Source: Chlorobiota bacterium
GTDB lineage: Bacteria; Bacteroidota; Ignavibacteria; OLB7
Length of the DNA: 44,952 bases
Direction of reading: 5' to 3'
NCBI GenBank assembly: GCA_016788565.1
Contig: JAEUSP010000120.1
Span: 1-44,952 of the forward strand
This document shows positions 39,013 through 44,779 of this stretch, piece after piece. Under the pieces are notes generated by a model. That model saw nothing but the letters and a program-made list of their open reading frames with translations. It did not search any database and was not told where the DNA came from. Positions within the stretch are counted from its first letter, which is position 1, and each line of letters opens with the position of its first letter. The position numbers were made by a program, and so were the translations under genes.

Positions 39013-39170
39013 ACCTTGGACACTATTGAGACACGCCAACTAACTCTGCAGAGTGAGGTTCCTGGGTTGGCTGTGCCGCTGGTCTCCCTGCCCCCCCTTT
39101 GAGGCAAAGAGCAAGTGAACACCGGGCGTGGTAACGCTTGCTGCGGAAGTGCGAGTGTGTGGCAAGATTG

Positions 39171-39178
39171 TAGCTTTG
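39171..39178 (+). promoter_or_regulatory. -7 element of ddl
   Basis: TAGCTTTG is an exact TAnnTTTG, 42 bp before the ddl ATG. A -33 element is not clear. Confidence 0.45.
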
Positions 39179-39219
39179 CACGCGCATACACCGTTGATCT
39201 AAACAACACACACACGCAC

Positions 39220-40233
39220 ATGAACATTGCTGTTTTGCTGGGGGGAACATCGCCCGAACGTCACGTTTCGATGTCCAGCGGGAAAGGGGTTGCCACGGCA
39301 CTGATGGCCGCCGGCCACACCGTCCACCTGTACGACATCGCGCTTGGGGCCAACGCCCTGATCTCCTTCGGCGACCTCCATCTTCCCACCGAGCAAGCCC
39401 CCGACGATGCCGAACTTTCCAGCTTCAACAACAACGCGATTATCACCGCAGTGCAATCGCTTCCCAGTGATCTTGACGTTGCGTTCCTGGCGTTGCATGG
39501 CGCGCCGGGGGAGGATGGAACCGTGCAGGGATTGTTGGAGTTGCGCGGAATCCCCTACACCGGGTCCGGCGTGCTGGCCAGCGCGCTGGCGATGGACAAA
39601 GCAATGTCCAAACGGGTGATGGAACACTACGATATCCCCACCCCACGTTGGTTCCAGGCAACCCGTGGCCAGCTTGACGCGCCGATGTTGCTGGCACGTG
39701 TTGAGCAGTACACCGACTTCCCTGTGGTGGTTAAGCCGAACGATGGAGGTTCCACCGTGGGGCTGACGATTGTGAACGATGCCGACGGGTTGGAATCGGC
39801 GTTCCAGTTGGCAGGGCATTATTCGGCAACGGTGCTGTTTGAAGAGTTCATCGAAGGGCGCGAACTGACGGTGGGGATATTGGGGGAAGAAGCCTTGCCG
39901 ATTGTTGAGATTCGCCCCAAAAGTGGCATCTACGATTACGCCAACAAATACACCGCGGGGCGCACCGAATACTTCTGCCCTGCAGAGTTGCCCCGCAGCC
40001 TTACCGAAGAAGTGCAGGAACTTGCGCGGCGTGCCCACGCTGCGTTGGGTTGCAGCGGCTACAGCCGCGTGGATTTCCGGTTGGATAACGATGGCCAGCC
40101 GTTTTGCCTGGAGGTCAACACACTTCCCGGAATGACCGCCACCAGCCTTGTCCCCAAAGCTGCGGCGGCGGACGGAATGAGCTACCAAGAACTGTGCGAG
40201 CAGATCATCCGGTTGTCGCGAAGAAGTGGGTGA
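39220..40233 (+). CDS. ddl: D-alanine--D-alanine ligase
   Basis: 337 aa from ATG 39220; the preceding leader is CA-rich. It joins two D-Ala for peptidoglycan precursors using ATP. The ATP-grasp signature is complete: the N-terminal GGTSPERHVSMSSG (about 8-21), FLALHGAPGEDGTVQG, VVVKPNDGGSTVGL (about 175-188), FEEFIEGRELTVGIL (about 207-221), SGYSRVDFRLDNDG and the C-terminal CLEVNTLPGMTATSL. It is bracketed by 79-bp direct repeats. No neighbouring murein genes are present, so this is a solitary locus. Confidence 0.97.
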   Translation: MNIAVLLGGTSPERHVSMSSGKGVATALMAAGHTVHLYDIALGANALISFGDLHLPTEQAPDDAELSSFNNNAIITAVQSLPSDLDVAFLALHGAPGEDGTVQGLLELRGIPYTGSGVLASALAMDKAMSKRVMEHYDIPTPRWFQATRGQLDAPMLLARVEQYTDFPVVVKPNDGGSTVGLTIVNDADGLESAFQLAGHYSATVLFEEFIEGRELTVGILGEEALPIVEIRPKSGIYDYANKYTAGRTEYFCPAELPRSLTEEVQELARRAHAALGCSGYSRVDFRLDNDGQPFCLEVNTLPGMTATSLVPKAAAADGMSYQELCEQIIRLSRRSG

Positions 40234-40429: not shown

Positions 40430-42124
40430 TCACCGCCGCCCGGGCCGGCCCTGGTAACCGCTGTTTCGCCACAGCGTGACGCGGCCTATTCTATCGAACG
40501 GAGGGAATAGGTGCATCCCCCCGCCAACCACGTCAGGAAGGTGGTCGCCGTTCAGATCGCCCACGTCAATCGTCAGCAGGTGCGTTGGCGCGGTGGCGAT
40601 TCCGTGGCCCAGAAATTTCTGCTTGCCGGTGTTCTCTAACCAGATCAAACTTGCGCGGTGCGGGTCGCTCCAGTCGTTGAACAGGCTGCTGGCCACCACG
40701 TCGGTGTCGCCGTCGCCATCAAGGTCGGCGGCCTGGGCGCGGTAGGCCCCGTAGTAGCGGAGGATGTCGTGCGGAACGAACTTCAGCTTCCCCTTGTTTT
40801 CCAGCCATTGCACCCCGTGGTACGGGCGGACAACGATGGTGGGAAGGTCTAAGTTGTCGCCGTTGGAGTACAGGATGTCCAGATCGCTATCGCCGTCCAT
40901 ATCCACCAGTTGAATGCCGGACGAGCCGTAGCTGGGGGTCGGGGCCTTGAAGATAATTTTCTCCTGAAACCGCTTGGCCGGTGCCACCGGTTTTGCATTT
41001 TTTTTTCGCGATTTTTTCTGGTTCAGAAACAGGCTCACCTCCTCATGCTCCTGGGCAATCACCGCCACGATGTCCAATTGGTGGTCGCCATCCAGGTCGG
41101 CCAGCGGGACGTTAATCGCGCCAGCTTTTCGGCTGATGACGTGGTACTCAAATCGCCCAGCTTCTTTCTGCTCAAGCCAGCCAACGCCGCCACGGTTCAG
41201 GTAGCCAAAATCGGCCACCGAAAAATCCAGATCGCCATCGCCGTCCAAATCCCCCGGCTGCACGTCGGCGGCGCGGCCAATCGAATCAAGAATCACCCTC
41301 CCTTTGAAATTCATGGCTCCGTCGTTTATCAGCAATCCAACCGAGCCAACGGGATCATCGGTGGGGGCCATGCTGCCGATGCACGTCACCACAATGTCCA
41401 GCGCGCCATCGTTATTCCAATCCAGCACCTCGACATGGCTGGGGTTGGGAAGTTGTGCAATCGTATCCTCGCGCCAGGCCGGGCCAACGCGGTGAATCCA
41501 CGAAAGCAATTCGCCGCCGGCATCGCAGACCAGAATGTCGTTCTGGCCGTTTTGGTCAAGGTCCACCACCTTCACGTGGCCGATAGCGGGGCGGCTGGCG
41601 GTGTCAATCGCCAGGCCGATTGGCTGCGCCGAAAACCCAATCGGCGATGTCAGCGGATCGGGGGCAAGCTGCGGCTGGTGTTGGGGGCTGAAGGTATAGT
41701 AGTAGTGGAGCACCTCTAACCAAACGCTATCGCTGTAGTTGGCCATTTTGCGGGTACGCAGCACCCCTATCATGTGCTGCATTGCTTCGGACCAGCTATC
41801 CATTGGCAGCAACTCTGGCTGGGGAACAAGGTGGCACCCGCCACAACGGAACTGCAAGTTGATGTTCTTCCCCCATGCTTGCTTGCTAAGGCTTGCGTTG
41901 GCGTTCAGATAATTTTTGGGGTCATCGCCAACGTGGGTTGCTGTTCCATCTTCATGGCAAGCGTTGCATGGGGTGCGGGTTTCGGAAGCGGTTGGCCCTG
42001 TTCCTCCCGCTGTTGGTGGCGCGGAGGTTGCAGCCCCAACGCCAGCCAGCAGAATCACCGCAAGAAGAACACCCACGGAAACAAGCGCAAGGGGTGAGTA
42101 AGAAGTAGAAGTTGGCGTTGGCAT
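40430..42124 (-). CDS. Di-heme c-type FG-GAP/VCBS beta-propeller protein
   Basis: 564 aa from ATG 42124. An N-terminal membrane helix/signal (LALVSVGVLLAVILLAGVGA) is followed by two heme-binding motifs, CNACH (C53-H57) and CGGCH (C94-H98), within a region ending near residue 140. The rest carries at least six FG-GAP/VCBS-type blades with Ca-binding DxDxDGxxD motifs: VVDLDQNGQNDILV, VLDWNNDGALDIVV, PGDLDGDGDLDFSV, LADLDGDHQLDIVA, LVDMDGDSDLDILY, AADLDGDGDTDVVA and VGDLNGDHLPDVVG. It looks like an exported electron-transfer protein with a beta-propeller platform. A class I cytochrome c gene lies 48 bp upstream on the same strand. The partner and substrate are unknown. Confidence 0.88.
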   Translation of the reverse strand: MPTPTSTSYSPLALVSVGVLLAVILLAGVGAATSAPPTAGGTGPTASETRTPCNACHEDGTATHVGDDPKNYLNANASLSKQAWGKNINLQFRCGGCHLVPQPELLPMDSWSEAMQHMIGVLRTRKMANYSDSVWLEVLHYYYTFSPQHQPQLAPDPLTSPIGFSAQPIGLAIDTASRPAIGHVKVVDLDQNGQNDILVCDAGGELLSWIHRVGPAWREDTIAQLPNPSHVEVLDWNNDGALDIVVTCIGSMAPTDDPVGSVGLLINDGAMNFKGRVILDSIGRAADVQPGDLDGDGDLDFSVADFGYLNRGGVGWLEQKEAGRFEYHVISRKAGAINVPLADLDGDHQLDIVAVIAQEHEEVSLFLNQKKSRKKNAKPVAPAKRFQEKIIFKAPTPSYGSSGIQLVDMDGDSDLDILYSNGDNLDLPTIVVRPYHGVQWLENKGKLKFVPHDILRYYGAYRAQAADLDGDGDTDVVASSLFNDWSDPHRASLIWLENTGKQKFLGHGIATAPTHLLTIDVGDLNGDHLPDVVGGGMHLFPPFDRIGRVTLWRNSGYQGRPGRR

Positions 42125-42172
42125 TCTGAGCAAGGTGAGTAATGACGGTGAGTAATCTCTGTCTGGTTGGCA

Positions 42173-42586
42173 TTATCGCAGTTTCGCAAGCATGAAATCG
42201 AGCGCAAGCGTCACCTGTTTTTTGGTGAGGGTTGTGTGGCCCCCTTTGGCCGGCATCAGCCCGAAGCCTTCCAGCGAATGCTTCAGCAAGGTTTTGCGCC
42301 CTTTTTTTAACCGCTCTTTCCACTCTTCCTGGTTCCCAATCCGCGGCGCGCCTTGCGCTCCGGTTTCGTGGCAGGTGTGGCAGGTCAGCTGGTAAATCTC
42401 TTCCCCCTTGGATAGCCGTTTGGGGGATTGCCCTTCTGGCAACGCCGCCGCTCGGGATGTCACCATCGGCTGATTCGCCCCACCTACTCCATCACAATTT
42501 CCGATTCCGCCAACGGCCATTGCCGCCCCGGCCCCAAACAAGGCCACCAGCAATGCCGCTAACAAGCTATGACGCAGTATCTTCAT
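42173..42586 (-). CDS. Monoheme class I c-type cytochrome
   Basis: 137 aa. A signal peptide (LLAALLVALFGAGAAMA, cut near 24) precedes a short linker and one cytochrome domain with CHTCH (C69-H73) and a distal Met in GLMPAKGGH (M111). This pattern is that of the cytochrome c5/cbb3-associated type with a C-terminal helix TKKQVTLALDFMLAKL. It is likely a periplasmic electron carrier. It is transcribed toward the di-heme propeller gene and divergently from the rhodanese gene, whose shared intergenic region is about 160 bp. Confidence 0.93.
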   Translation of the reverse strand: MKILRHSLLAALLVALFGAGAAMAVGGIGNCDGVGGANQPMVTSRAAALPEGQSPKRLSKGEEIYQLTCHTCHETGAQGAPRIGNQEEWKERLKKGRKTLLKHSLEGFGLMPAKGGHTTLTKKQVTLALDFMLAKLR

Positions 42587-44090: not shown

Positions 44091-44732
44091 GTGGTTCGCA
44101 CATCGCTAACGCCGCGCCAGAACGAGATTTATGAGTTCATCCGCAACTGCATCCAGCAGCAGGGCGCGCCGCCAACCATTCCCGAAATCGGGGCGCGGTT
44201 CGGGATGAAATCGAACAACGGCGTGAACGACCTTCTGAACGTGCTGGAGCGGAAAGGCTACATCATCCGCCGCCGCGGGACCGCTCGCGGCATCGCCCTT
44301 ACCGACCACGCCCCCCCCGCCGACCCCAAAAGCAAAGGGGTGAAGAAGCTGCCAATCGTTGGCGAAGGGGAAGCCTCCAACCCTTTCGCCATGTTTTTAA
44401 GCCCGCAAGGGATGCTGGCGTTGGACCCCCAACTTGTCCCCCCCGGCAACGCCTTCCTTGCCATTGTGGCCGATGATGGGATGGACAAAGAGGGGATTCT
44501 GAAAGGGGATTACGTGGTGGTCCAGCAAAACCCAAACCCACCACACGGCGCGCTGGTGTTCGCCCTTTCCGGAAGCGACCAAATCGTCCGCCGCCGCAGC
44601 CCCGATGGAGCGCGCCTTCTATCAGCCAACCGATTCTACCCCGCCGTGGAAATTCAGGATACCGAGCAGGTAGCCGTGGTGGGGGAAGTAACCGCAATCC
44701 TCCGAACCGTGAGACGGAAGAGTGAAGAGTGA
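44091..44732 (+). CDS. LexA-like repressor with inactivated self-cleavage site
   Basis: 213 aa from GTG 44091. The N-terminal LexA DNA-binding winged helix is intact (LTPRQNEIYEFIRNCIQQQGAPPTIPEIGARFGMKSNNGVNDLLNVLERKGYI split at 7-57). The C-terminal S24 fold aligns without gaps to E. coli LexA (FLAIVADDGMDKEGILKGD and ALVFALSGSDQIVRRR), but the catalytic Ser is Gly130 (codon 44478-44480) and the catalytic Lys is Arg167 (codon 44589-44591). The scissile Ala-Gly is Ala95-Ser96. It should therefore bind DNA but not autocleave. The last codons (KSEE, stop) are encoded by a heptamer repeat. It follows the rhodanese and MauE-like genes. Confidence 0.9.
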   Translation: MVRTSLTPRQNEIYEFIRNCIQQQGAPPTIPEIGARFGMKSNNGVNDLLNVLERKGYIIRRRGTARGIALTDHAPPADPKSKGVKKLPIVGEGEASNPFAMFLSPQGMLALDPQLVPPGNAFLAIVADDGMDKEGILKGDYVVVQQNPNPPHGALVFALSGSDQIVRRRSPDGARLLSANRFYPAVEIQDTEQVAVVGEVTAILRTVRRKSEE

Positions 44733-44762
44733 AGAGTGAAAGGTGAAGAGTGAAGAGTGAAA
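44717..44762. repeat. Heptamer array (GTGAAGA)n at the 3' end of the LexA-like gene
   Basis: About six units GTGAAGA, with one AGGTGAAG slip, start inside the last four codons of the LexA-like gene and extend beyond its TGA. The unit is the reverse complement of the TCTTCAC array at position 1. Confidence 0.92.
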
Positions 44763-44779
44763 TGAAGACAAAGCCGGAA

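Follow-up and report, generated by a model that had tools for sequence, protein, structure and literature searches.

The repressor of DNA repair, LexA, is a textbook case of self-destruction, and dyad mutants of the E. coli protein cannot be released through self-cleavage. Canonical LexA (E. coli type, TIGR00498; MEROPS S24) joins a winged-helix domain (PF01726) to an S24 C-terminal fold and carries a Ser-Lys catalytic dyad and an Ala-Gly cleavage bond. Described variants depart from this plan in different ways. The LexA of Synechocystis PCC 6803 has Asp in place of the Ser and Gly-Gly in place of Ala-Gly (PMC3091678); SOS control is not thought to be its role (PMC3091678, PMC7567884), and modification has been proposed as its means of control (PMC7567884). 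The non-canonical LexA of Bacteroidetes (Sanchez-Osuna 2021) has a CI-type HTH, keeps both the dyad and the Ala-Gly bond, and runs SOS (PMC8565304). A further point of comparison is MraZ, a known regulator of dcw, the division operon found across bacteria.

Here we describe a LexA branch that, judging by its phylogeny, abandoned self-destruction in a single ancient event and that appears wired to septum and cell-wall genes. If this is true, it provides an example of SOS repressor rewiring and a second dcw regulator beside MraZ. The gene under study lies in a 44,952-nucleotide stretch of DNA that was analysed as a whole (the window), and its features are as follows.

44091..44732, + strand: dyad-less LexA-like repressor gene (ORF, 213 aa, GTG start)
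44100..44291, + strand: LexA winged-helix DNA-binding domain (PF01726 match; recognition helix region MKSNNGVNDLL)
44373..44378, + strand: Ala95-Ser96 codons, at the place of the E. coli LexA cleavage bond Ala84-Gly85 (alignment)
44472..44483, + strand: D128-D129-G130-M131 codons, where the nucleophile Ser has become Gly (alignments)
44589..44591, + strand: Arg167 codon, standing in for the general base Lys156 (alignments)

The overall build of the protein is that of LexA. Its DNA-binding domain, which the initial annotation had judged intact, matches PF01726 at 69.8 bits (cut-off 23.7) and is 45% identical to the 1lea NMR structure, and the C-terminal part matches Peptidase_S24 (PF00717) at 45.7 bits. 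A Foldseek search with an AlphaFold2 model built from seven sequences (mean pLDDT 77.5, pTM 0.53) returned 1jhh and 1jhf as top matches, with full-length LexA structures ranking first, so that winged helix, S24 fold and full-length structural match are all shared with canonical LexA. Directly past the stop codon lies a short tandem repeat of GTGAAGA-like units (window 44730-44765). Elsewhere in the window, at 40430-42586, a gene for a multi-FG-GAP protein with a dihaem cytochrome c stretch adjoins a small cytochrome c gene; the two probably form a secreted electron-transfer pair.

The cleavage machinery is another matter. HMMER alignment to E. coli LexA (1jhf) places A95-S96 on A84-G85, G130 on S119 and R167 on K156, which is residue for residue what the initial annotation had read by eye: Gly130 for the nucleophile, Arg167 for the general base and Ala-Ser as the cleavage dipeptide. 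We also considered an alternative placement of Ser and Lys in the active site and rejected it, as several alignments of the protein and its relatives contain no replacement Ser/Lys pair nearby. The dyad is lost, and self-cleavage is therefore not expected from the sequence, as had been proposed. By these residues the protein is a LexA-family pseudo-peptidase, with the DNA-binding domain and S24 dimerisation fold kept and the Ser-Lys dyad gone.

Searches of related genomes with the window protein and with a profile revealed the same loss in about 50 relatives, distributed over the class of the window and another class of the phylum. Position 128, which is Gly in cleavable LexA, is Asp throughout this clade; position 167 is Arg in all members, and position 130 is Gly, Ala or Thr, and once Ser, then paired with Arg167. 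In a tree built after removal of the active-site columns, one branch (support 100/99) divides the 39 dyad-less from the 40 canonical proteins, and dyad loss needs one change. On this tree the dyad was lost in one ancient event and is not a local quirk, while the inner order of the dyad-less clade, which holds several long branches, is uncertain. An S24 LexA-like protein from another genus of the family (G004; L051:3501-4304, contig C25) was left out of the tree. It has lost only the Lys, keeping Ser (VADDSM) and carrying Ser for the base (TISY), and its sequence suggests a second, separate partial loss of the dyad.

The missing catalytic residues, together with the absence of the gene from two other genomes of the window's family (G002 and G003), could be read as the mark of a LexA duplicate decaying without function. 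Against an 87%-identical congener, however, the window gene shows purifying selection, with dN/dS of 0.17 overall and of 0.16 and 0.18 in its two domains (the latter C-terminal), and the reading frame is open in all loci read except one (L262). The dyad loss is therefore not decay or chance. The new residues D128 and R167 are moreover conserved and the clade is deep. On dN/dS and clade depth we rejected a pseudogene, and decay is extremely improbable.

These comparisons separate the protein from each of its described counterparts. Unlike canonical LexA, it has neither the Ser-Lys dyad nor the Ala-Gly bond and stands in a separate clade; lacking these three defining features, it should not be filed as an SOS repressor. 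Automatic annotation nevertheless takes such dyad-less proteins for SOS LexA; that of the window clears the NCBIfam lexA model (TIGR00498) at 112.3 bits against a cut-off of 110.95, a margin of 1.4 bits. Synechocystis LexA, invoked earlier as a precedent, is a fair one in that nucleophile and Ala-Gly bond are lost in both. The Synechocystis protein is, however, a single LexA with Ser replaced by Asp and a Gly-Gly bond, whereas here a paralogue clade tied to mraZ shows Ser replaced by Gly, Ala or Thr and Lys by Arg. We regard the two losses as analogous, a likeness of residues. The non-canonical Bacteroidetes LexA is likewise an S24-family repressor from the same phylum, but it has a CI-type HTH and an intact dyad where the window protein has a PF01726 domain and no dyad.

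A canonical LexA coexists with the dyad-less protein in several genomes. The search for a second lexA recommended by the initial annotation found one in the window genome itself (G000:C83:100699, L002), with its AAG cleavage site, GDSM and TVKR motifs all intact; the ORF that follows it, starting MCGRY, looks like an SRAP (YedK-type) gene. Both kinds also occur together in family f7 and at Rhodothermaceae loci. Such coexistence, with the LexA-like fold and DNA-binding domain, would suit an uncleavable competitor or heterodimer partner that acts on canonical LexA operators and makes the DNA-damage response harder to trigger. Three observations argue against this retained SOS role. The dyad-less protein is the only LexA of two genomes (G028 and G038); the recognition helices of the two kinds differ in the alignment; and the conserved block that precedes the canonical lexA genes of the family, GGTGTTCA-N3-GA-N-GAC, is unlike the palindromes described below. 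We consider an SOS role quite unlikely.

The initial annotation had taken the neighbouring rhodanese and MauE-like genes as a hint of redox control. These genes are indeed adjacent and co-oriented in the window and its congener (L033), which speaks for a redox regulator of them. The association is limited to the genus, however: in a second genus of the family the orthologue (L040) lies among genes for a HAD hydrolase, ACPS, MbnP and MauG, with no rhodanese or MauE, and neither was found beside the more distant relatives looked at. Nor does the alignment of dyad-less relatives contain conserved cysteines. We rejected the redox link as genus-limited, and a redox regulator is very improbable. What recurs instead is adjacency to mraZ and its upstream palindromes.

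In most families the dyad-less gene is divergent to mraZ, the first gene of the dcw cluster. This holds for 11 of 14 loci in family f7 (the other three end at a contig edge), for all loci in f16 (7/7), f15 (4/4) and f29 (2/2), and for 15/15 loci of the other class, part of which is recorded publicly as Rhodothermaceae; the gene lies away from mraZ in f1, f6, f24, f27 and f28. Pfam matches identified mraZ, rsmH, ftsL, ftsI, mur and mraY genes nearby, and where the cluster was read further the order after mraZ is rsmH, ftsL, ftsI with PASTA, murE, murF, mraY and murD. Among open-licence papers, searched for LexA together with MraZ or dcw and for LexA in Rhodothermus and Salinibacter, we found no report linking a LexA-like protein with mraZ or dcw.

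Most genomes read carry GTGGG-type repeats directly upstream of mraZ, which we take to be MraZ sites. Farther from mraZ than these repeats, a palindrome with the pattern TGAA-N6-TTCA occurs twice; its usual sequence is ACTGAAAATATTTTCAGT in the window's class (ACTGAA-N6-TTCAGT) and GGTGAAAATATTTTCACC in the other class (GGTGAAA-N4-TTTCACC). The spacing between the copies of 31-33 or 40-42 bp is near whole helical turns, placing both in phase on the same helix face. The pair is present in 23/42 genomes with the dyad-less gene (0.08 by chance) and in 0/46 genomes without it (shuffle expectation 0.24), the genomes being related and the counts thus not independent trials. By class, it occurs in 13/28 gene-bearing genomes of the window's class (shuffle expectation 0.06) and 10/14 of the other (0.02), under a strict pair rule that misses some, such as G159, whose pair is visible on reading. 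Dyad loss, a single clade, mraZ adjacency and operator co-occurrence are facts at the level of sequence.

Pairs persist at mraZ where the gene has moved away, in f27, f28, f24 and one f6 genome. Where this region was read (f27, f6 and f1), the gene preceding mraZ is co-oriented with it, and the palindromes can therefore serve only mraZ. In one genome (G247), two of the three near-consensus sites are the mraZ-upstream pair.

This protein-site link is a correlation only, and in f7, where mraZ adjacency is kept, the recognition helix differs (STRAVSD) and the conserved blocks include no convincing palindrome of this kind. Both points would fit palindromes that belong to another, co-inherited transcription factor, leaving the dyad-less protein with other targets. 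The sites, however, have LexA-box architecture, with inverted CTG/CAG outer halves as in canonical operators, and lie beside the gene itself in several families; they are also present or absent together with the gene even within f1. On balance we regard attribution to another factor as unlikely.

A non-SOS regulon, one of the options the initial annotation had raised, is likely. The candidate operators lie at mraZ and not, as for canonical LexA, at SOS genes. Our favoured explanation, which we hold to be probable, is that the protein acts as a non-SOS dcw repressor at these palindromes and is released otherwise than by RecA-triggered self-cleavage. DNA binding, repression rather than activation, and a signal are what we infer. 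Cooperating dimers would bind the paired palindromes on the same helix face and would repress, or set the level of, mraZ, rsmH, ftsL, ftsI, murE, murF, mraY and murD, and likewise control the repressor's own gene where it is divergent to mraZ. MraZ is expected at the same promoter region; it belongs to a family unrelated to the LexA-like protein, which would be a second independent layer on that promoter. Autoregulation could bring about release through protein level or dilution; other possible routes are a ligand or other signal in the remodelled D128/R167 pocket, another protease, or the kind of modification put forward for Synechocystis LexA (PMC7567884). Rather speculatively, the former catalytic pocket (Asp128 and Arg167) might now bind a cell-wall or cell-cycle metabolite, making the ex-protease domain an allosteric sensor that tunes dcw to envelope synthesis. 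The genomes that supplied the other class's members are near-complete, and some consist of a single contig; a cultured species may therefore be available.

For the window's own organism, an uncultivated member of the Bacteroidota-Chlorobiota group, dcw control is likely on the sequence evidence, with weaker support than in relatives. Its mraZ (G000:C38) heads the series mraZ-rsmH-ftsL-ftsI-murE-murF-mraY-murD. A candidate site, ACTGGTATTTTTTTCAGT, starts at C38:46193. It lies past the end of the preceding gene, about 250 bp ahead of mraZ. A site matrix built from other families alone gives it 13.4, a value reached by 2/500 shuffles; the top score anywhere in the 45-kb window is 8.0. At the aligned place the congener scores 9.3 and the other genus (G004) 27.6, a perfect palindrome. 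The G000 candidate is single and degenerate; a genome-wide pattern search in G000 stood at background (3 matches vs 4 in the control), and no well-scoring operator was found in the window upstream of the dyad-less gene itself or of the rhodanese gene. The pattern suggests that the regulator moved away from mraZ here, with one weakened operator remaining. Of the family members that lack the gene, G002 also lacks the site. G003 (L068) retains two weak ones, scoring 11.3 and 5.9 and separated by 39 bp, some 260-300 bp upstream of its mraZ. Sites in a genome without the gene weigh against the favoured explanation; these two look like a pair that decayed once the regulator was lost.

Some further elements were noted in these genomes. 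About 4 kb upstream of the dyad-less gene lies a cell-wall gene for D-alanine--D-alanine ligase (window 39115-40233), and the congener (L033) has one in the gene's vicinity too; no operator was found at the window copy. Between candidate operators and MraZ repeats runs a second conserved element, approximately TGTAAAC-N4-AATAAC or ATAATTAC, seen at L265:2225-2250 (G000:C38) and likewise in L071, L068, L144, L153, L156 and L163. It occurs also in G003, which is without the dyad-less LexA, and could mark a distal promoter or be bound by another regulator. In G000 a very stable hairpin (L265:2272-2334, C38), at -44 kcal/mol (z -6.25), separates the putative operator from mraZ; an Rfam search matched no family to it or to the mraZ leader of G000. 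L153 and L163 have shorter hairpins in a similar position, and a leader, an attenuator or the terminator of a short transcript are possible identities for these mraZ-upstream hairpins.
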